Below, in pieces: positions 4,119 to 20,930 of a stretch of DNA of 33,675 nucleotides. How positions within the stretch are numbered: position 1 is the first letter of the stretch; each line of letters begins with the position of its first letter. The stretch is from Silvibacterium sp. (GTDB lineage: Bacteria; Acidobacteriota; Terriglobia; Terriglobales; Acidobacteriaceae). The notes beneath the pieces were generated by a model, which saw only the letters and a program-made list of their open reading frames with translations, was not told the DNA's origin and made no database searches. Location: NCBI GenBank assembly GCA_030037215.1, contig JASHRS010000104.1, forward strand, positions 1 to 33,675, read 5' to 3'. Made by a program: the position numbers and the translations under genes.

Positions 4119-6128
4119 TTGCCCGTTGCTCCTGTCTCCTCTTGCCGTTTCCGTTCCGGGCTTTTGCCGCTGGCCTTGTGTCTGATTTCCGTTGCAGGCG
4201 CGCAGACGCAGAGTGCAGGAGACACGACTTCTGCCTATGATCCGAGAGTTACGTTTGCCCCGCTCACGCTGCCGACTCCTGTAAACGCATACCGGTCGAG
4301 CAATGGCGCGCCCGGGCCGGCGTACTGGCAAAACGAGGCCGATTATGAGCTGCACGCAACCCTCGACACTAAAGACAAACAACTGAGCGCAATGGAGACC
4401 ATTACTTACACCAACAACAGCCCGGATGTGCTCCCGAGCGTGTGGGTGCAAATGGAGCAGAACATCTACAAAAAGGATGCGCGCGGGCAGATTATCATGG
4501 GCGCGCTCATGCGGCGCATGATGGCGCGACAGGGCATGATGCCAGGCAGCATGACAACGGATGGATTTGTGCTGGATTCTGTTGCAGTAGAGATGAGCGG
4601 CAGAACAAGCAAAGCCGAGTATCTGGTAACTGATACGCGGATGCAAATTAGGCTGCCGGAGCCGCTGAAGGGGCACGGAAGCCAGCTGAAAATACGCATT
4701 CAGTATCACTACACAATTCCCGGCGTGTGGGGCGGAAGGACTTCATGGGGCATGTCCGACAAGGGTGAGATTTACGACATGGCGCAGTGGTATCCGCGCA
4801 TGGCGGTGTACGACGATTTGCGTGGCTGGGACACGCTGCCCTATATCGGCAGCGAGTTTTACCTAGAGTACGGGAATTTCGATTATTACGTCACCGTGCC
4901 CGCAAACATGATTGTCGCCGGCTCAGGTGAACTGGTGAATCCAAAGGATGTGTTAACGAATGCAGAAATAGCACGGATGACGCAGGCGCGCAGCAGCGAT
5001 AAGACGATCTACATCCGGACGCCAGAAGAAGCGAGCGACGGCGCGGGCAGGCCGAAGCAGAGCGGCACGCTCACGTGGCATTTCCATATGGACCGCACGC
5101 GGGATGTTTCCTGGAGCGCGTCGCCGGTGTTTGTATGGGACGCGGCGCGGATCAATCTTCCTGAAGGCAAAAGCGCGCTGGCGATGAGCTTTTATCCGCC
5201 TGAGAGCGTTGGCCCGGATGCGTGGACGAACTCGACGGCGTATGTGAAGGACACGGTGGAGCGATTTTCAAAGCAGTGGTACCCGTATCCATGGCCCGCA
5301 GCGATCAATGTGGCGGGATTTTCAACCGGGATGGAGTATCCGGGTATTGTGTTCGACGGTGTTCGTGATAAGGACCCTTTTCTGTTTTGGGTAACGGCAC
5401 ACGAGATTGGGCATAGCTGGTTCCCGATGATCGTGGGATCGAATGAGCGGCGTCATGCGTTCATGGACGAGGGCTTCAACACGTTTATCGATATTGATGA
5501 GTCGGCGGAGTACGCGGGCGGCAAGTTCGGGCCGAAACGCGACTCGGAATACTCCGCGGGCGGCGAACCTCCGGATATGATTCTGAAGGTGCTGGATAAC
5601 CCGAAGGCTCCAACGCTGATGGCGCTCGCGGATACATATAGCTTGGCGCTGGATCATCCGGTCAGCTACTTCAAAGGCGCGTACGGAATGGTGCTGCTGA
5701 GGGAGCAGATTCTGGGCCCGGAGCGGTTTGACTGGGCATTTCGAAAGTACATTCACGACTGGGCATACAAGCATCCCTCGCCGTCGGACTTTTTTCGTGA
5801 GATGCAGAGCGAGGGCGGCGAAGACCTGAGCTGGTTCTGGCGGGGATGGTATCTGAACAACTGGAAATACGATGTTGCTGTGGACAAAATCGATGGCGAC
5901 TCGGTTACGCTGAGCAACCGTGGGCAGCTTGTGCTGCCAACCACAGTAGAGGCTACTTTCAAGGACGGTTCAAAGACACGCATCAAGCTGCCGGTAGAGA
6001 CATGGATATCACAGGGGACGTATGTCTGGACCCCGAATAGCAAGTCGCCCATTGCTTCGGTGATAGTTGACCCCGACCATGTATTGCCAGACGACGATCG
6101 CACCAATAACACGATGAAAGCTCCATAA
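4119..6128 (+). CDS. secreted M1-family zinc metallopeptidase (aminopeptidase-like)
   Basis: Probable zinc aminopeptidase acting outside the cytoplasm, 669 residues. The chosen start is TTG 4119, preceded by an AGAGAGG ribosome site (4105-4111); no ATG precedes the signal peptide. Residues 11-28 form a hydrophobic signal segment ending in VAGA before Q29. The catalytic site is complete: HEIGH at 428-432, the third zinc ligand E451 in MDEGFN, and an exopeptidase-type GMEYPG (404-409) in place of the textbook GAMEN. The C-terminal third has no recognisable extra domain. Substrate is not predictable; known relatives release N-terminal residues from peptides. A second, only distantly similar M1 gene lies at 12677. 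The gene stands alone between nuoN and the GH13 gene. Confidence 0.87.
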   Translation: MPVAPVSSCRFRSGLLPLALCLISVAGAQTQSAGDTTSAYDPRVTFAPLTLPTPVNAYRSSNGAPGPAYWQNEADYELHATLDTKDKQLSAMETITYTNNSPDVLPSVWVQMEQNIYKKDARGQIIMGALMRRMMARQGMMPGSMTTDGFVLDSVAVEMSGRTSKAEYLVTDTRMQIRLPEPLKGHGSQLKIRIQYHYTIPGVWGGRTSWGMSDKGEIYDMAQWYPRMAVYDDLRGWDTLPYIGSEFYLEYGNFDYYVTVPANMIVAGSGELVNPKDVLTNAEIARMTQARSSDKTIYIRTPEEASDGAGRPKQSGTLTWHFHMDRTRDVSWSASPVFVWDAARINLPEGKSALAMSFYPPESVGPDAWTNSTAYVKDTVERFSKQWYPYPWPAAINVAGFSTGMEYPGIVFDGVRDKDPFLFWVTAHEIGHSWFPMIVGSNERRHAFMDEGFNTFIDIDESAEYAGGKFGPKRDSEYSAGGEPPDMILKVLDNPKAPTLMALADTYSLALDHPVSYFKGAYGMVLLREQILGPERFDWAFRKYIHDWAYKHPSPSDFFREMQSEGGEDLSWFWRGWYLNNWKYDVAVDKIDGDSVTLSNRGQLVLPTTVEATFKDGSKTRIKLPVETWISQGTYVWTPNSKSPIASVIVDPDHVLPDDDRTNNTMKAP

Positions 6129-12390: not shown

Positions 12391-12676
12391 TAAACGAAAA
12401 ATCCACAAAACATCTTTTTACCTGAGTCTTTTTGCCTGCCTCATTCGTCATCCCCATAGAGCTGCAGTGCTGGTAGTCGTGGAGGCAACTCTGCCGGGAA
12501 ACGGTGCGCCTGGATTGCTGTGCCTTTGCTCTCATAATCTGACACACCGTTTTCCTTCTTGATCGTGCCTCGGTCTAGGTTTGCTCTACGCGGCTGATTC
12601 TCTCGGTTACGCGTTTGGGCCGAAAGTACGCGCAATCTTCGCAACATTCGGGCAAAGCACGATAGGCTATAAAGTC
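12391..12676. other. gene-free interval before the second M1 peptidase
   Basis: I see no coding region here. Short frames on either strand lack a ribosome site and a protein-like composition. Sequence resembling a -10 element (CATAAT, TATAAA) occurs, but without a matching -35 box, so no promoter is called. Confidence 0.4.
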
Positions 12677-14329
12677 ATGGCCAGGCGTCTTTTTGTTTTG
12701 CCCGTTCTGTTCCTTGCTCTTCTGACCGAGGTCTGCCGACTTCCTGCACAGACAAAACACGTAACTGCGACCCCGAATCTTCCGAGTCGCGCCGACATAC
12801 TGCGCGGCGCCTACGGGCCGTACCGCGCGAATAATGATCTTCTTTATTACCACCTCGACGTCCGGATCGACCCCGATAAGCAATGGGTCAGCGGAAAGAA
12901 CACGATTCGTTTCAAGATGCTCAAAGATGGCAACCGCATCCAGCTTGATCTGAGCCAGGCACTCAATATCGACAAGATTCTTTATGGAGCGGTACCGCTC
13001 AAATATGAGCGCGATACTGGCGCGGTCTTCGTCGATTTTCCGCAGATGCTGAATGCGGGACGCGTTTACTCCATCGACTTCTACTATTCAGGCCATCCGC
13101 TTACTATTGGACGCTTCGGTGGCATGGTTTTTGGCAAGGACCCCTCGGGCCATCCCTGGATTTACACATCCTGCGAAGACGATGGCGCCAGTATCTGGTG
13201 GCCGAACAAAGACCAGTGGCGCGACGAGGTTCAGAACATGGATATCAGCGTCACGATCCCGAATAACCTTGTTGATGTTTCCAATGGACGCCTTGAAGGT
13301 AAGACGGATTTAGGTAACGGCTATACGCGTTGGGACTGGTCGGTTCATTACCCCATCAACAATTACGACGTAGCCTTGAACATTGGCAACTATGTCCACT
13401 TTGGCGGACATTACGGCGCGCTCACTCTTGATTATTATGTATTGCCCGAAGACCTGGAAAAGGCCAAAAAGCAGTTCACGCAGGTAAATGGAATGCTTGA
13501 TGCCTTCACGCATTACTTCGGCCCTTATCCTTTTGTGAAGGACGGTTACAAACTCGTTGAAGTTCCCTACGCAGGCATGGAGCACCAGAGTGCAGTCGCC
13601 TATGGCAACCACTTTGCTAATGGCTATCTCAACCGCGACTGGACTGGAGTGGGTATCAGTCCGCGTTTTGACTTCATCATCATTCACGAGAGCGGGCACG
13701 AATGGTTTGGCAACAGCATTACTGCCGCCGACCGCTCGGATATGTGGATTCACGAGGGTTGGACCACCTATCTGGAGGGGCTTTATGTTGAGTACCGTTG
13801 GGGACATGCAGATGCACTCAAGTACCTCAACGGACTCAAGCCGAAAATAGAGAATGGCGAACCGATTGTTGCCGAACGCGGCGTGAATGCAACTCCTCCA
13901 GAGGACCAGTACTTCAAAGGCGCGCTGATGCTGAACACTCTGCGAAGCATCGTGAACAACGATGCGAAGTGGTTTGCACTGATTCATGGCTTTTACCAGC
14001 AATTCAAGTATCAGAACATCATGACGGAGGACGTGATTCGTTACTTTAATCAGCAGACGGGCATGAACCTGACGCCTGTCTTTCGCCAATATTTATTCCA
14101 TGCGCAGGTTCCAGTGTTGGAACTTCTGTTTGATCCGACAGAACATGCCGTCTCCTATAAGTGGCAGGCAGAAGAGCCTGATTTTGCCATGCCGGTTGAA
14201 GCTGGCGATCCCGACCATTGGCAGATTCTCCACCCAACTTTGGAATGGCAGACGATGACGACCCCTCTAACCAAGGATCAATTTCAGGTGGCCACCGACA
14301 AGTACTACATTTATGTGGACAAACAATAG
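12677..14329 (+). CDS. M1-family zinc metallopeptidase with signal peptide
   Basis: Second M1-type peptidase, 550 residues from ATG 12677; an earlier in-frame start at 12581 would add a 32-residue leader without ribosome site. Residues 1-24 (basic MARR, then a hydrophobic run ending near LPAQ) make a signal peptide. The exopeptidase motif is GMEHQ (300-304), the zinc site HESGH is at 337-341 and the third ligand is E360 in WIHEGWTTY. The N-terminal beta domain typical of the family spans roughly 40-230; the C-terminal helical domain is short. It most resembles bacterial M1 aminopeptidases that act on peptides in the periplasm or medium. The gene lies 63 bases upstream of the hut operon, so peptide hydrolysis could feed histidine catabolism, which is an inference from position only. 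Confidence 0.86.
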   Translation: MARRLFVLPVLFLALLTEVCRLPAQTKHVTATPNLPSRADILRGAYGPYRANNDLLYYHLDVRIDPDKQWVSGKNTIRFKMLKDGNRIQLDLSQALNIDKILYGAVPLKYERDTGAVFVDFPQMLNAGRVYSIDFYYSGHPLTIGRFGGMVFGKDPSGHPWIYTSCEDDGASIWWPNKDQWRDEVQNMDISVTIPNNLVDVSNGRLEGKTDLGNGYTRWDWSVHYPINNYDVALNIGNYVHFGGHYGALTLDYYVLPEDLEKAKKQFTQVNGMLDAFTHYFGPYPFVKDGYKLVEVPYAGMEHQSAVAYGNHFANGYLNRDWTGVGISPRFDFIIIHESGHEWFGNSITAADRSDMWIHEGWTTYLEGLYVEYRWGHADALKYLNGLKPKIENGEPIVAERGVNATPPEDQYFKGALMLNTLRSIVNNDAKWFALIHGFYQQFKYQNIMTEDVIRYFNQQTGMNLTPVFRQYLFHAQVPVLELLFDPTEHAVSYKWQAEEPDFAMPVEAGDPDHWQILHPTLEWQTMTTPLTKDQFQVATDKYYIYVDKQ

Positions 14330-14392: not shown

Positions 14393-16057
14393 ATGATCCC
14401 ACCGCATTCTCCAATTCGTGCATCGCGCGGTAATACGAAAACGGCCAAGGGTTGGATTCAGGAAGCCGCAAAAAGAATGCTGATGAACAACCTTGATCCT
14501 GAGGTTGCCGAGAAGCCTGAGGAGCTCATTGTTTATGGCGGACGAGGCAAGGCAGCACGCAATTGGGATTGCTACCGCACGATCGTCGAAACTCTTGACC
14601 GGCTCGAAAACGACCAGACATTGCTCGTGCAATCGGGCAAGGCAATCGCTGTGCTCAATACGCACAGGCTGGCTCCCAGAGTCCTGATTGCAAATTCCAA
14701 TCTTGTGCCTCGATGGGCTACATGGGAAGAGTTCGACAAGCTGGATGCTGCAGGACTGATGATGTACGGTCAGATGACTGCGGGATCATGGATTTACATC
14801 GGTACACAAGGAATTCTCCAAGGCACATATGAGACGTTTCGTGCAGCGGCGAAAAAGCACTTTGGGGATACTCTTGCCGGCACAATTACGGTGACTGCGG
14901 GTCTTGGGGGCATGGGAGGCGCTCAACCGCTTGCAATCAAGCTTGCGGGCGGAGCCGGCATTTGCATCGAAATCGACCCGAAGCGAATAGAGCGGCGCCT
15001 GCAAACGCGTTATCTCGATACAGTAGCGATTTCGCTGGAGGACGCAATCCGTCAGGCGTTAACTGCGAAACGGGAACGCAGAGCGGTCTCCATCGGGCTT
15101 ATGGGTAACGCGGCGGATATCCTTCCGGAAATGGTGCGGCTGGGATTCATTCCTGACCTGGTCACAGACCAGACAAGCGCGCACGACCCTTTGTGGGGAT
15201 ATATTCCGTGCGCAAAACCCGATGAGGACCTTACAGTCCTGCGCTCACTTCATCCGGAGGAATATGCCAGCCGCGTAAAGTCGTCGATTGCACAGCATGT
15301 GCAGGCGATTCTGGCGATGCAACGTCGCGGAGCGGTTGCGTTTGACTATGGCAACAATTTGCGGACACAAGCACAAATTGCCGGCGTAACAGATGCGTTT
15401 GCCTATCCGGGCTTTGTTCCTGCGTTCATCCGCGATTCTTTCTGTGAAGGCCGTGGGCCCTTTCGCTGGGTTGCGCTATCCGGCGACCCGTCAGACATTG
15501 CAGCCACAGACCAGGCTCTCCTGCAGCTCTTCCCCGAAGATAGCCGCCTGCAGCAATGGCTAAGCTTCGCTGCAACGCAAATTGCGTTTCAGGGGCTCCC
15601 TGCCCGCATTTGCTGGCTTGGTTATCGCGAACGTGATCGCGCTGGATTGTTGTTCAATCAGATGGTGCACGACGGCCGTATCAAAGCTCCGATCGTGATC
15701 GGACGCGACCATCTCGACGCAGGCTCGGTCGCGAGCCCTTTTCGCGAGACCGAAGCCATGCTTGACGGCTCGGATGCAGTCTCCGATTGGCCTTTACTCA
15801 ATTTTGCTACTGGAATCGCGAGCGGCGCCGCGTGGATGAGCTTCCATCACGGGGGAGGCGTAGGTATGGGATACAGTCAACATGCCGGCCTTGTTGCTGT
15901 CGCTGACGGCAGCGAGGAGGCCGAAGAACGTCTGCGGATGTGTTTGACCAATGATCCGGCGATGGGAGTGGTTCGCCACGCTGATGCCGGATATGAGCGC
16001 GCCAGGATCGTCGCCAGGCAGCGTGGCTTGGACATGCCGAGCCTGAACCTGCCATGA
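14393..16057 (+). CDS. hutU: urocanate hydratase
   Basis: Converts urocanate to 4-imidazolone-5-propionate, second step of histidine breakdown; cytosolic and dependent on tightly bound NAD+. 554 residues, the normal length. ATG 14393 sits eight bases after GAGGAG. Family marks include [11 protein letters not shown] near the start, [14 protein letters not shown], the dinucleotide-binding [12 protein letters not shown], the catalytic-cysteine region [15 protein letters not shown] and the signature [17 protein letters not shown]. It leads a four-gene unit in which every junction is an ATGA overlap, beginning with hutI at 16054. The first pathway enzyme, histidine ammonia-lyase (hutH), and a hut regulator are not in the window. 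Confidence 0.97.
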
Positions 16058-17280
16058 AGCAAGATCTGCTCATCACGGGTATCTCACAGCTTGTGACTGC
16101 TGAGGGACCCGGCTCGAAACGTGGCCGGTCCATGCATGAGCTGAAGATTATCGCTGAGGCAGCGATCGCTGTATGTTCCGGTTTCATAACCTGGGTGGGA
16201 AAAGAGAGTGACTGGACAGGAGAACCTGCAACAACGGTTGATGTCGGCGGCCGTGCTGTAGTACCGGGGTTGGTTGATCCTCACACCCACGCGGTATGGG
16301 CCGGAGATCGCTTGAATGATTTTGAAGCTCGAACTTCCGGCGCGACTTACGAATCCATACTTGCAGCGGGCGGCGGTATTCGAAGTACGATTCGTGCTAC
16401 GGCAACGAAATCCTTAGATGATCTCGTCGCAGATGCCAGTCCGCGCCTCAAATCTCTGATCGGTTCTGGAGCAACGACGATCGAAGTCAAGTCTGGTTAT
16501 GGATTTACGCCTGTCGCTGAATGCAACATCCTGGAAGCGATCCTGGCTGTCGCAGCGCAATTGCCCGCGCAGATTCTGCCGACACTGCTTATCCATGTAC
16601 CTCCTGCGAATAACGGAGAACGCGCGAACTATCTGACTACAGTATGTGAAGAGTTGATACCGGACGTAGCACGACGCAAGCTGGCACGCGCGGTTGACGT
16701 GTTTATCGAGAAGGAAGCGTGGACGGTGGCTGAGGCGGAACTTATGTTGCGAGTGGCCAGAAAGCATGGCTTTGCGACAAAACTGCATAGCGACCAATTT
16801 CATTGCATCGGCGGAGTAGAGCTTGGAATACGCGCTGGCGCACTAAGTGTTGATCATCTTGAAGCCTCAGGCGCAGAGCAAATTGCTCAACTTGCAGCTA
16901 ACAGCACGATCGCAACGATCCTCCCGGGTGTTTCTTTGCATTTAGGAATACGAGCGGCGCCTGGACGCAGGCTGATCGATGCCGGCGTTGCCGTTGCTAT
17001 CGGGACAGACCTGAATCCGGGCTCTAGCCCCTTATTCTCAACCTCGGCTGCATTGGCGCTGGCGGTTAGACTCAATGGGTTGACCGCCCACGAGGCGCTT
17101 GTGGCGGGCACCGTGAATGCAGCTTGTGCATTGGGGCTTACAGATACTGGCCGCATCGAAGCCGGATGTCGAGCGGATTTTCTTGTCCTGCACGGGAAGG
17201 ATTGGCGTGAACTTATTTACACACTAGGAGCAAATCCTGTATGTGAAGTTTGGATCGGCGGACGGAGGGTCCAGCGATGA
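16054..17280 (+). CDS. hutI: imidazolonepropionase
   Basis: Hydrolyses 4-imidazolone-5-propionate to N-formimino-L-glutamate, third step of histidine catabolism. 408 residues of the amidohydrolase superfamily. The metal-binding [16 protein letters not shown] has H77 and H79; later come the GGGI loop, the KSGYG segment, HSDQFH and GTDLNPGS with the catalytic aspartate. The start ATG 16054 overlaps the hutU stop as ATGA, and the stop overlaps the hutF start the same way, so translation is coupled. Residues 20-35 are a slightly long N-terminal loop. There is no sign of damage. Confidence 0.96.
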
Positions 17281-18668
17281 ATACGCTTTATCGTCCGGAA
17301 CTGCTCTATTCAGATGGCCGGTTAATGTCCAACGGTGAACTGCTGGTTAGCGAAACCGGCAAGATCCTCGAGATATCTGAAAAAACGAATGACTCTTCAA
17401 CGCGGGTTGTCGATTTGCCGGGAAAGGCATTGCTCCCTGGCTTTGTGAACGCTCATTCTCATTCTTTTCAGCGGCTCATTCGTGGCAAGTCGGAGTCGCG
17501 ACTCGCGAGTGGAAGTGACTTCTGGTCCTGGCGAGGAACGATGTATCACGCCGCCAACCGGCTCGACCCGCAGGATGTATATGACGTAGCGCGCATGGCC
17601 TTCCTCGAAATGGTTCTCACCGGCACAACAACAGTCGGTGAGTTTCACTACCTCCACAATGCTCCAGACGGCAAACCGTATGAAGACCCAAATCTCCTGG
17701 CGAAGCAAGTACTTGCTGCCGCGCGATCTGTTGGGATATGCATTGTGCTTTTGCGGACGGCATACCTGCGATCGGGATTTAATTTGCCACGTGACTCGGG
17801 GCAGATCCGGTTTTTTGAATCCCGCTCCGCGTTTCTCGAGAATATGGACGCGCTTATACAAGAATTCCGAAATGTCTTTGAGGTCAGCTTCGGTGTTGCC
17901 CCTCACAGTGTTCGTGCTGTGCCTCTTAGCGATCTAAAAGAAATTGTCGGGTGGAATCGTGCCCTCAATCTTCCGCTTCACATGCATATCTCCGAACAGG
18001 TTGCAGAAAATGCCGCATGCGTTCGCGAATATGGGCTTGCCCCAGTAGCGCTTCTCAACCGCGAGCGGATTCTCGATGCTAATTTCACTGGAGTTCATGC
18101 GATCCATATAGACCCCAATGAAATTGATATGCTCGCGGAAGCGAACGCAACAATATGTGCATGTCCAACCACTGAACGTAACCTCGGAGACGGTATATTC
18201 CCCGCCGACTGTGTTTTGAATGCCGGTATTCGTGTTGCGCTTGGCTCAGATAGCCAGGCGCAGATCGAACCTCTGGAAGATGCACGGCAGCTTGATTATC
18301 ATTTGCGGCTTCAACGGCAAAAGCGCACCATACTCGATCAGATTGCGGCGAAGCCGCTGGCTACAACCCTGTTTGAATGTGCAACGATTCATGGGGCCCG
18401 CTCGCTCGGTTTGCATTGTGGAGAATTGAAACCTGGGGCGAATGCCGATTTCTTTACAGTGGACTTGAGCGACCCATCCATTGCCGGCAATTCCGCCGAT
18501 GACCTGCTCTCCATTCTCGTGTTTTCACTTAATCGCTCGGCCGTACATGACGTAGTCGTCAACGGAAGGATCATTCTTCAAGACCGACGACATCCGCTTC
18601 ACGATGAGATTGTCGCCAGATATCAAGAGGTTCACCATAAGGTTTGGCGAACAGAGCGCCTCCTATGA
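17277..18668 (+). CDS. hutF: formimidoylglutamate deiminase
   Basis: Amidohydrolase expected to convert N-formimino-L-glutamate to N-formyl-L-glutamate and ammonia; 463 residues. The start ATG 17277 overlaps the hutI stop and follows GGAGGG; the earlier frame start at 17250 would lie inside hutI. Metal ligands are H60 and H62 in NAHSHSFQRLIRG; further on are TTTVGEFHYLHN, the HMHISEQ motif and ALGSDSQ, all typical of HutF and not of guanine deaminases. Its presence commits the cell to the five-step pathway through formylglutamate, which requires a formylglutamate amidohydrolase (HutG). No hutG-like gene follows; an M20 enzyme does. Confidence 0.94.
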   Translation: MNTLYRPELLYSDGRLMSNGELLVSETGKILEISEKTNDSSTRVVDLPGKALLPGFVNAHSHSFQRLIRGKSESRLASGSDFWSWRGTMYHAANRLDPQDVYDVARMAFLEMVLTGTTTVGEFHYLHNAPDGKPYEDPNLLAKQVLAAARSVGICIVLLRTAYLRSGFNLPRDSGQIRFFESRSAFLENMDALIQEFRNVFEVSFGVAPHSVRAVPLSDLKEIVGWNRALNLPLHMHISEQVAENAACVREYGLAPVALLNRERILDANFTGVHAIHIDPNEIDMLAEANATICACPTTERNLGDGIFPADCVLNAGIRVALGSDSQAQIEPLEDARQLDYHLRLQRQKRTILDQIAAKPLATTLFECATIHGARSLGLHCGELKPGANADFFTVDLSDPSIAGNSADDLLSILVFSLNRSAVHDVVVNGRIILQDRRHPLHDEIVARYQEVHHKVWRTERLL

Positions 18669-19795
18669 GCGATGTCATCGAACATCTTAAAAACTTGATC
18701 AGGATACCTTCTGTTTCATCATTATCGAATCGACCGATTATTGACTATGCACTTGGCGTGTTGCGAGAGGCACAGTGGCAGACTCGCATGATCACCTACA
18801 AGGATTCGGCAGGCATCGAGAAAGTCAATTTGATCGCAGCACCACAAAGCCATGACGCGAATGATCCTGCAACAGAATTGGCCTTTGTTTGCCATACCGA
18901 TACTGTTCCCTACCTGCCGGACTGGATCAAGGCAACCGACCCATACGTAAGCAACGGGATGCTGCACGGCTGCGGAGCCTGTGACGTAAAGGGGTTTCTC
19001 GCGTGCCTCTTAACCGTAATCAGTGAGACAGCTCCGTCGAAGACTGCTCGGAATCTACGCGTGGTGCTGACTGCTGATGAAGAGGTGGGCTGCGTTGGCA
19101 TGAGCCATTTGATCGCCGGCGGGCTGCTCCACCCCCGTAGAGTTGTCGTCGGCGAACCTACATCATTGCGCCCTGCGCGAGCCGGAAAGGGGTACTGCCT
19201 GGCAGAGATCACAGTGTTCGGGGAAGAAGCCCATAGTGCATTACCGGAAATGGGTAAATCAGCAATTTACAGGGCGGCTCGTCTGGTGAACGGAATCGAA
19301 GAACTTGCCCTGGAGCTTGCCAAAGAGAGACACGCATTCTTCTCGCCGGAGTTTACAACCCTCAATATTGGCACCATTCAAGGAGGCACGGCCAAAAATA
19401 TCATCCCGGGCCGGTGCTGCTTTCAGCTTGAGTGGAGACCGATTCCCAGTCAGCCGATAGATACCGTGCCGACGGCTGTATCGAGAGTTGCGGAGAAGCT
19501 CCGAGAATGTGATCCCACGTTTCTCTGGAATATGAATATCGCGCGGCAACAAGGGGGCTTTGAGACGGATGCGAACTGCGAGCTAGTGCGCTCGATGGAG
19601 GCGCTCACGCGGAGGAAAGCAACTTCGATTCCATTTGGATCGGAAGCAAGTCTTCTCGCTAATGCAGCAGCAGATGAAATTGTGGTGTTTGGCCCTGGCA
19701 ATATGCAATTCGCACACAGTAGCCGTGAGCGCGTGCCGCTCAATGAATTGAAAGAGGCAATCGTGATTTTGAAATCGCTAATTGCTTGTGGCTGA
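18665..19795 (+). CDS. M20-family deacylase (ArgE-like), candidate N-formylglutamate hydrolase
   Basis: Zinc-dependent M20 amidohydrolase of the acetylornithine deacetylase branch, 376 residues. ATG 18665 overlaps the hutF stop (ATGA). The metal centre is intact: H77-x-D79 in CHTDT, D107 in CDVKG, the general base pair E139-E140 in ADEEVG, a GEPTS motif and H351 in FAHSSRERVP. The AHSALPEMG segment marks the dimerisation domain. Overall it resembles ArgE, but nothing else of arginine biosynthesis is nearby. Being the last, translationally coupled gene after hutF, its likely substrate is the hutF product N-formyl-L-glutamate, taking the place of HutG. E. coli ArgE is known to accept several N-acyl and N-formyl amino acids, so the chemistry is compatible. 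The family is sure; the substrate is inferred. Confidence 0.85.
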   Translation: MSDVIEHLKNLIRIPSVSSLSNRPIIDYALGVLREAQWQTRMITYKDSAGIEKVNLIAAPQSHDANDPATELAFVCHTDTVPYLPDWIKATDPYVSNGMLHGCGACDVKGFLACLLTVISETAPSKTARNLRVVLTADEEVGCVGMSHLIAGGLLHPRRVVVGEPTSLRPARAGKGYCLAEITVFGEEAHSALPEMGKSAIYRAARLVNGIEELALELAKERHAFFSPEFTTLNIGTIQGGTAKNIIPGRCCFQLEWRPIPSQPIDTVPTAVSRVAEKLRECDPTFLWNMNIARQQGGFETDANCELVRSMEALTRRKATSIPFGSEASLLANAAADEIVVFGPGNMQFAHSSRERVPLNELKEAIVILKSLIACG

Positions 19796-19841: not shown

Positions 19842-20930
19842 TTACTGGTGATCAGGTTGCGACGCTGGTGCAGCAGGAGGCTCAGAGGATACTGCCGCCT
19901 GCTGTAGTAGGCGGTAGCCGTCTCGAGTTCGCACGCGATACTTTGCAAGATCTTTACCTACCAGCTTCACACTTATGGAACGCCAACCTCGATTACTGTT
20001 AACTTTGGGGTAATAGGTGATCGTGTAGAGGTGTGCCAGATCATCGCGAATGGAGCCAAATGCGAGCTTTTCGTCCTGCCAGTCTTTCGCGAAGTATGCT
20101 TTGCCACCAGTGGCCTTGCTCATTCGTTCGAACACGGCGGTTGACATCGGGTCTTCCTCAGCCGCCCGGGTGCTGATGATGTAAATGATCGTTCCGGTTG
20201 ATTGGGCCAGTTCTTCCACATCTTCTGGAGGAATGGAACTAGCATCGTCCGGACCATTCGAGAACACGACGATCGCCTTTCGCCCACGGAGCTGGGCTGC
20301 GTCTCTAACGGTGAGCAGCAAGCAGTTATAGAGAGCAGCTTCGTCTCCCGCAACCGTGTTGCGTACGCCTCGAAGGACAACGGAACGGTCGGAGGTTAGT
20401 GGCGTGGATCGGGATAAATCTCGACTGTAGGAATAGAAAGCAATTTTGTCTGCGTCCTGCATGGAACGGATGAAGCCCACAATGGCATCCTGGGCATAGA
20501 CAAATCCCCGGTACATGTAGTCGCTGGTATCAAACAAGATAAAGACGCTGGCTCCGGCAAGATGTGAAGCCAACGGCTGCGCCTGTGCCTCAATGGCGTT
20601 ATCCCCCTCAGAGGAAGCCGGCTTGACATCTGGGGTCGCTGCTTGCTGGCTGGACTGTATGGTGTTTGCTGCTCCGCTAATGATTTCGCCGCCCTCCTCA
20701 AAGGAGGAGATTGTTTCTGGAATCTTATCCTCTGTAATTGCAAAGTTGTCCGGACGAAGCCCTGTGACGTAATGCCCTTTCTTGTCAGTTACCGCGACAT
20801 TCAGTTGCACTAGAACAACATTGACAAGAATGCGCGAGTGATCTTCCTGCGCTGCTGGTTGACGGTTGCCATCGGCATGAAAGAACAGAACCAGACATAA
20901 TCCTGTGCTGATAATAGATCTCGTTGCCAT
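19842..20930 (-). CDS. secreted VWA-domain protein, acidobacterial type
   Basis: 362-residue protein resembling the VWFA-related family (TIGR03436) expanded in acidobacteria. An N-terminal hydrophobic segment (about 5-20) looks like a signal peptide. Residues 35-75 form a short beta domain with NVAVTDKKGHYVTGL and DNFAITEDK, typical of that family, followed by a low-complexity linker (85-125) and the VWA domain (about 127-300). The metal-site motif is D134-T-S136-D-Y138, lacking the final serine of the canonical DxSxS, so cation binding may be weak. The tail is Ala/Pro/Gln-rich. The start ATG 20930 lies 28 bases after the large secreted protein gene ends, on the same strand, so the two very likely share a transcript. 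Function unknown; VWA domains usually mediate protein binding. Confidence 0.85.
   Translation of the reverse strand: MATRSIISTGLCLVLFFHADGNRQPAAQEDHSRILVNVVLVQLNVAVTDKKGHYVTGLRPDNFAITEDKIPETISSFEEGGEIISGAANTIQSSQQAATPDVKPASSEGDNAIEAQAQPLASHLAGASVFILFDTSDYMYRGFVYAQDAIVGFIRSMQDADKIAFYSYSRDLSRSTPLTSDRSVVLRGVRNTVAGDEAALYNCLLLTVRDAAQLRGRKAIVVFSNGPDDASSIPPEDVEELAQSTGTIIYIISTRAAEEDPMSTAVFERMSKATGGKAYFAKDWQDEKLAFGSIRDDLAHLYTITYYPKVNSNRGWRSISVKLVGKDLAKYRVRTRDGYRLLQQAAVSSEPPAAPASQPDHQ

Follow-up and report, generated by a model that had tools for sequence, protein, structure and literature searches.

An ArgE-like M20 hydrolase as the probable N-formylglutamate deformylase of a histidine-utilisation operon in Acidobacteriota

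Which enzyme completes histidine degradation in a hut operon that is expected to produce N-formylglutamate and carries no recognisable hutG? The question is raised by a 33,675-nucleotide stretch of DNA from Silvibacterium sp. (contig JASHRS010000104.1 of assembly GCA_030037215.1, phylum Acidobacteriota), hereafter the window, in which hutU, hutI and hutF are followed by a gene for an ArgE-like hydrolase of the M20 family. By combining family models, surveys of related genomes, phylogenetic trees and comparisons with the residues of ArgE and DapE, we find it probable that this M20 protein descends from ArgE, has been inherited together with HutF and acts as the N-formylglutamate deformylase in place of HutG. 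The four genes are:

14393..16057, + strand: hutU, urocanate hydratase (NCBIfam TIGR01228, 926.8 bits, cut-off 375)
16054..17280, + strand: hutI, imidazolonepropionase (TIGR01224, 414.9 bits, cut-off 298.15); ATGA overlap with hutU at 16054-16057
17277..18668, + strand: hutF, formimidoylglutamate deiminase (TIGR02022, 471.9 bits, cut-off 413.05); ATGA overlap with hutI at 17277-17280
18665..19795, + strand: ArgE-like M20 hydrolase of 376 amino acids, proposed N-formylglutamate deformylase (Pfam Peptidase_M20 and M20_dimer); ATGA overlap with hutF at 18665-18668

Each of them runs from ATG to TGA with a single stop, all on the + strand, and 4-base ATGA overlaps form all three junctions (hutU/hutI, hutI/hutF and hutF/M20); the sequence-only reading that drew attention to the locus had described this arrangement, and both the coordinates and a reading of the three junctions bear it out. 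The M20 gene is translationally coupled to hutF, which we count in favour of a deformylase role. HutF passes the cut-off of its family model, and most of its sequence can be aligned with the N-formimino-L-glutamate iminohydrolase of P. aeruginosa (3mdu, 251.9 bits); it keeps the HSH-FQR, W-WR, EFHY, HS-RAV, EQ and GSDS blocks that we take to belong to the active site. We therefore regard it as genuine, so that N-formyl-L-glutamate is its expected product and a hydrolase is required. That reading had also noted no hutG-like gene, and this extends to the draft assembly of which the window is contig C176 (3.67 Mb in 314 contigs, 89% complete), where no match to PF05013 (HutG) was found; the search control comprised 14 genomes and gave a match in Caulobacter. 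In a Pfam scan, the M20 protein itself showed M20 domains only, without PF05013.

We surveyed two sets of genomes, one drawn from the class (151 genomes, window included; M20 at E 1e-20) and one from the phylum (297 genomes; hutF at E 1e-60 or better, M20 at E 1e-25). Within the class, relatives of the M20 protein at 46% identity or more occur in eight genomes and are set apart from the next matches (at most 32%) by a gap in E value from 1.7e-96 to 1.2e-39. Nine of the 151 genomes carry hutF, namely these eight and G087, which belongs to the window's own genus; PF05013 is likewise present in nine, of which G087 is the only one with hutF. The hutF genomes of the class split without overlap into eight with the M20 gene beside hutF and no PF05013, and one (G087) with PF05013 and no such M20, where no M20 match was obtained at E 1e-20. 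Its canonical HutG lies within a hutU-hutG-hutI / hutF / GntR-type cluster (locus L084; the GntR name is a reading of the sequence). This cluster differs from that of the window and its HutF is diverged; it may have been acquired separately.

Across the phylum, hutF was found in 37 of the 297 genomes (27 above the TIGR02022 cut-off), PF05013 in 28 and M20 matches in 31, ten of these at 43% identity or more. Those ten, seven from family f1 and three from family f31, all have the gene adjoining hutF, and none has PF05013. Pooling both draws gives 11 genomes (window included) with an M20 protein of at least 43% identity; it is the neighbour of hutF in 11/11, and PF05013 is absent throughout (0/8 in the class draw, 0/10 in the phylum draw). 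PF05013 lies 2 kb or less from hutF in six genomes (G087, G238, G262, G299, G288 and G322), and none of the 37 hutF genomes combines an ArgE-like M20 beside hutF with PF05013 near hutF (Fisher p = 0.023 over all 37 and 0.027 over the 27 above the cut-off, relatedness being ignored). The linkage of the two genes and its mutual exclusivity with hutG, which had been put forward as a check on the proposed function, are thus both seen in these surveys.

The gene order hutH-hutU-hutI-hutF-M20, with hutH directly before hutU, recurs in six relatives, and hutF and the M20 gene overlap by four bases in G135, G095, G060 and G131, by one base in G066 and by a short stretch in G117. More distant M20 proteins (31-36% identity) lie next to hutF in six further genomes of the phylum (G157, G212, G330, G363, G370 and G400); hutF is below the TIGR02022 cut-off in five of these six, and in G212 PF05013 is matched weakly (80.6 bits), on a contig other than that of its hutF-M20 pair. 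A contig scan with the single M20 protein returned two relatives at 29-30% identity, with no hut genes in their flanks. No M20 relative at 60% identity or above was found on plasmids (best among the matches listed, 32.6%); hutF matches are also present on plasmids.

To place both proteins in evolutionary context we built an M20 tree from 55 of 59 rows, with four duplicates (of G212, G370, G330 and G363) dropped, PRK09133-type M20 proteins excluded and G099 in neither alignment nor tree, and a HutF tree from 38 rows. The ten aligned relatives form one M20 clade (clade A, support 100/99), every member of which is linked to hutF, and the HutFs of the clade A genomes group together (100/97) with one extra member, from G229. 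Families f1 and f31 are recovered as groups in both trees, the finer branching differing at places of lower support. This agreement between the main groups supports co-inheritance of M20 and HutF. Another clade (clade B, 100/99) has seven members, six of them linked to hutF; in six genomes (loci L103, L104, L105, L107, L108 and L168), a clade B ArgE-like M20 adjoins a diverged HutF.

The best solved-structure match of the clade profile is E. coli ArgE (7rsf, 239.4 bits; DapE, 120.1 bits), and we mapped onto the window protein the residue roles given for that enzyme in PMC11270798. The zinc ligands (ArgE H80, D112, E145, E169 and H355; window H77, D107, E140, E164 and H351), the base E144 (E139), H195 (H190) and the alpha-carboxylate residues N251 and R264 (N245 and R258) are all kept in 10/10 clade A rows of the alignment. 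Four positions of the ArgE pocket are replaced in all ten rows (H179 by G174, H182 by Y177, S250 by K244 and P300 by R294), as is Y330 (by F324), and D198 has become Phe, Tyr, Leu or His. The codons concerned are:

19184..19195, + strand: G174 to Y177 (ArgE H179 and H182 replaced); 10/10 clade A rows, G in 0/45 and Y in 1/45 other rows
19394..19396, + strand: K244 (ArgE S250; DapE N244); 10/10 clade A rows, 0/45 others
19544..19546, + strand: R294 (ArgE P300; two before I302, which equals DapE S290); 10/10 clade A rows, also 7/45 others

None of these 45 comparison rows (39 others and six of clade B) has two of G179, Y182, K250 and R300 in ArgE numbering. Phe at position 330 is common outside clade A (15/39 others, 1/6 clade B), and the clade B proteins keep H179 and H182, with Val or Ile at 250 and Tyr at 198. 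Both H182 and Y330 are proposed as marks of ArgE in PMC11270798, and neither is found in clade A (Y177 and F324, 10/10). According to the same paper, DapE residues S181, N244 and S290 (equivalent to ArgE H182, S250 and I302) bind the distal carboxyl of the substrate; an invariant lysine where DapE meets that carboxylate would fit glutamate rather than ornithine.

From genomic context and pocket together we infer N-formylglutamate as the substrate and deformylation as the predicted activity. HutF of the same transcript would make N-formyl-L-glutamate, which the M20 protein, as a di-zinc amidohydrolase of the ArgE/DapE fold, would hydrolyse to L-glutamate and formate. Zn1 (H77, D107 and E164) and Zn2 (D107, E140 and H351) would activate the water and, after the ArgE and DapE models, E139 would serve as the general base, H190 would stabilise the tetrahedral intermediate and N245 and R258 would hold the alpha-carboxylate. 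K244, perhaps with R294 and Y177, may bind the gamma-carboxylate where ArgE would accommodate the side chain of ornithine. As to its history, we lean slightly towards an ArgE-type deacylase that turned deformylase through a rebuilt pocket (G174, Y177, K244 and R294) and that, paired with HutF as a two-gene unit, spread through several of the phylum's families and displaced HutG; clade B, with its diverged HutF in six genomes, may represent a parallel recruitment. The non-orthologous N-formylglutamate hydrolase proposed in the sequence-only reading is supported by this comparative evidence, namely the linkage to hutF in 11/11, the swap of HutG and M20 within the class, joint inheritance and the rebuilt pocket.

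Several observations weigh against this assignment, and the first of them would suit a genuine acetylornithine deacetylase (ArgE) that stands at the end of the hut operon by chance and serves arginine synthesis. The nearest curated family is TIGR01892 (acetylornithine deacetylase), the best NCBIfam model for the window M20 at 293.9 bits, which just misses the cut-off of 297.7; the top 25 of its 45 NCBIfam matches are ArgE, DapE and related deacylases, with ArgE first. Six scored relatives from clade A exceed that cut-off (G135 333.8, G066 341, G117 365.2, G219 426, G327 409.4 and G173 411.1; E. coli ArgE 579.7), and none of the scored clade A members reaches the cut-off of 460 of PRK05111 (best 291.6; E. 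coli ArgE 709.5). Two of the altered pocket positions are, moreover, shared with the ArgE of Myxococcus xanthus, presumably a genuine ArgE. It has Tyr at 182 and Phe at 330, as the sole exception to the proposed marks that PMC11270798 names, so that those two changes alone do not indicate another substrate.

The window genome has argC within an apparently complete arg cluster (argC, sought in eight genomes, is the only gene of the cluster that was family-scanned; the names argB, argD, argF, argG, argH and argR come from a reading of translated starts and synteny). ArgJ makes ArgE unnecessary, and ArgJ (PF01960) was not found in the window's 89% complete draft, nor was another ArgE-like M20: neither of the two other M20 genes of the genome is ArgE-like (best PRK07473 at 259 bits versus 386, and PRK07338 at 78.7 versus 357). 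A role as ArgE is thus possible in the window genome alone, where the missing ArgJ could reflect a species loss or a gap in the draft, since the ArgJ gene of G087 is some 26 kb away from argC, outside the part shared with contig C185 of the window genome (G000).

Elsewhere the evidence runs the other way. ArgJ is present in 142 of the 151 class genomes, among them seven of the eight M20 genomes and G087, so that ArgE is not called for in those seven; of the 143 genomes without this M20, 135 have ArgJ and 8 do not, and the M20 gene therefore does not track the loss of ArgJ. Three genomes of family f1 (G018, G054 and G119, 99-100% complete) have neither ArgJ nor this M20 at E 1e-20. The worry that the gene might be the only argE is thus answered for seven of the eight class genomes and stands for the window's draft. 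With no M20 inside the arg cluster, linkage to hutF in 11/11 and both proposed ArgE marks changed, we consider a chance-placed ArgE unlikely.

Other observations bear on the further genes found around hut clusters. In the window, these lie outside the four-gene run:

12581-14329, + strand: M1-family peptidase, ending 63 bases upstream of hutU, in the hutH place of six relatives
19842-20930: gene matching the TIGR03436 'acidobact_VWFA' family model, in keeping with an acidobacterial source
4119-6128, + strand: second M1-peptidase-like gene, after three antiporter-type (Proton_antipo_M) genes

The hutH gene is missing from the window and is found on another contig (C4:45681-47081; TIGR01225, 670.7 bits), beside a sugar-transporter-like gene. 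A PRK09133-type M20 (NF006596; 'hypothetical protein') lies near the hut cluster of several lineages, whether or not they have the ArgE-like M20, and is perhaps a peptidase supplying histidine:

L036:17358-18788, PRK09133-type M20
L037:994-2544, PRK09133-type M20
L038:16658-18103, PRK09133-type M20
L039:17136-18581, PRK09133-type M20
L040:1430-2947, PRK09133-type M20
L090:5542-6774, PRK09133-type M20
L094:4561-5934, PRK09133-type M20

The substrates of M20 enzymes include many N-acyl amino acids and dipeptides, and the hut-operon M20 could accordingly act on some other N-acylated substrate (for example N-acyl-histidine, a histidine dipeptide or N-acetylglutamate) while an unrecognised enzyme removes formylglutamate. 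This would be in keeping with the PRK09133-type M20 and, in the window, the M1 peptidase beside the hut genes, perhaps supplying histidine. It would also suit a negative precedent: the COG0624 (M20) family was predicted to be an 'Alternative form of N-formylglutamate deformylase', the Streptomyces avermitilis protein was without deformylase activity in the assay, and the case (At5g43600, 'Experimental - Histidine Degradation') appears as case 20 of Table 3 among families 'invalidated by us' in PMC3223725.

In the phylum draw, 15 of the 37 hutF genomes show neither PF05013 nor an ArgE-like M20 near hutF (G376, G188, G398, G342, G302, G265, G232, G251, G229, G328, G305, G356, G224, G151 and G346), so that other solutions exist and substitution by M20 is not the sole one in the phylum. 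Within this group, G305 and G251 have hutF at a contig end and are hence ambiguous calls, G151 and G224 have PF05013 elsewhere in the genome, their hutF match being very diverged and adjacent to pyruvate kinase, and the hut region of G342, G302, G232 and G251 includes a PRK09133-type M20. G229 has a HutF of the clade A group, and neither M20 (E 1e-25) nor PF05013 was found in it; its hutF (L096) lies between a TauE-like gene and a DUF885 gene. Lastly, in G117 and the three f31 genomes (G219, G327 and G173) the sequence examined on either side of the hutF-M20 pair showed neither hutU nor hutI. Three genomes of family f39 (L085, L086 and L088) show yet another arrangement, with hutF, a GntR/UTRA regulator, hutU, hutH and hutI; PF05013 was not found in them, and the vicinity holds no ArgE-like M20.

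Against another substrate stands the pairing of the M20 gene with hutF itself, including in the four genomes whose nearby sequence showed neither hutU nor hutI, which fits a step after HutF better than a role in supply; where PF05013 is lacking, the M20 gene also provides for the only step of the route left without an enzyme. We consider this explanation quite unlikely. We also did not adopt the PRK09133-type M20 as a general substitute for HutG: it stands alongside the ArgE-like M20 in G066 (confirmed by NCBIfam), G095, G060, G099 and G131, and this coexistence makes it an unlikely substitute there. A third explanation, that HutG was missed because the draft is incomplete (89%, in 314 contigs) and that the M20 gene is a dispensable passenger, is highly improbable and was rejected, since PF05013 is also absent from the other seven class genomes with the M20 gene, all of them 99% complete and G135 in a single contig.

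Should the deformylase assignment hold, the last gap of the deiminase route of histidine degradation would be filled in genomes with HutF and without a PF05013 HutG, and the annotation would be corrected for a set of proteins to which NCBI's model mostly gives the name acetylornithine deacetylase. It would also provide a compact example of how an M20 enzyme comes to accept an acidic instead of a basic side chain, and would bring back, in another M20 lineage, a prediction that was once tested and abandoned for Streptomyces. The open-access literature searched, which mostly leaves out subscription journals, yielded no description of an ArgE-like HutG. The idea of an M20 enzyme as HutG is already known and one test of it failed; the ArgE-like lineage would be a non-orthologous displacement in a known pathway.

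Several known systems bear comparison with this lineage. We take the At5g43600 and Streptomyces case to be an M20 of the allantoate/ureidoglycolate amidohydrolase type, not ArgE-like, and the window M20 is not closest to that subfamily (AllC/UAH), its leading NCBIfam matches lying with ArgE, DapE and related deacylases. What the two share is that each is an M20 in histidine degradation predicted to replace HutG (SEED; PMC3223725). The PRK09133 subfamily (NF006596) is likewise M20 and found near hut genes, but forms a separate subfamily. DapE (succinyl-diaminopimelate desuccinylase) has the same fold, with N244 at the position of window K244, whereas no dap context surrounds the window M20. E. 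coli ArgE (PDB 7rsf and 8uw6; TIGR01892) shares the di-zinc M20 fold with its dimerisation domain and the zinc and catalytic residues, although the relationship is at the level of roughly 30%, the window M20 is linked to hutF rather than to arg genes and most of its class-draw carriers have ArgJ. HutG itself (PF05013, FGase) belongs to a family unrelated to M20, yet it has the same proposed reaction and the same niche in the pathway, one or the other being present in each of the nine hutF genomes of the class.

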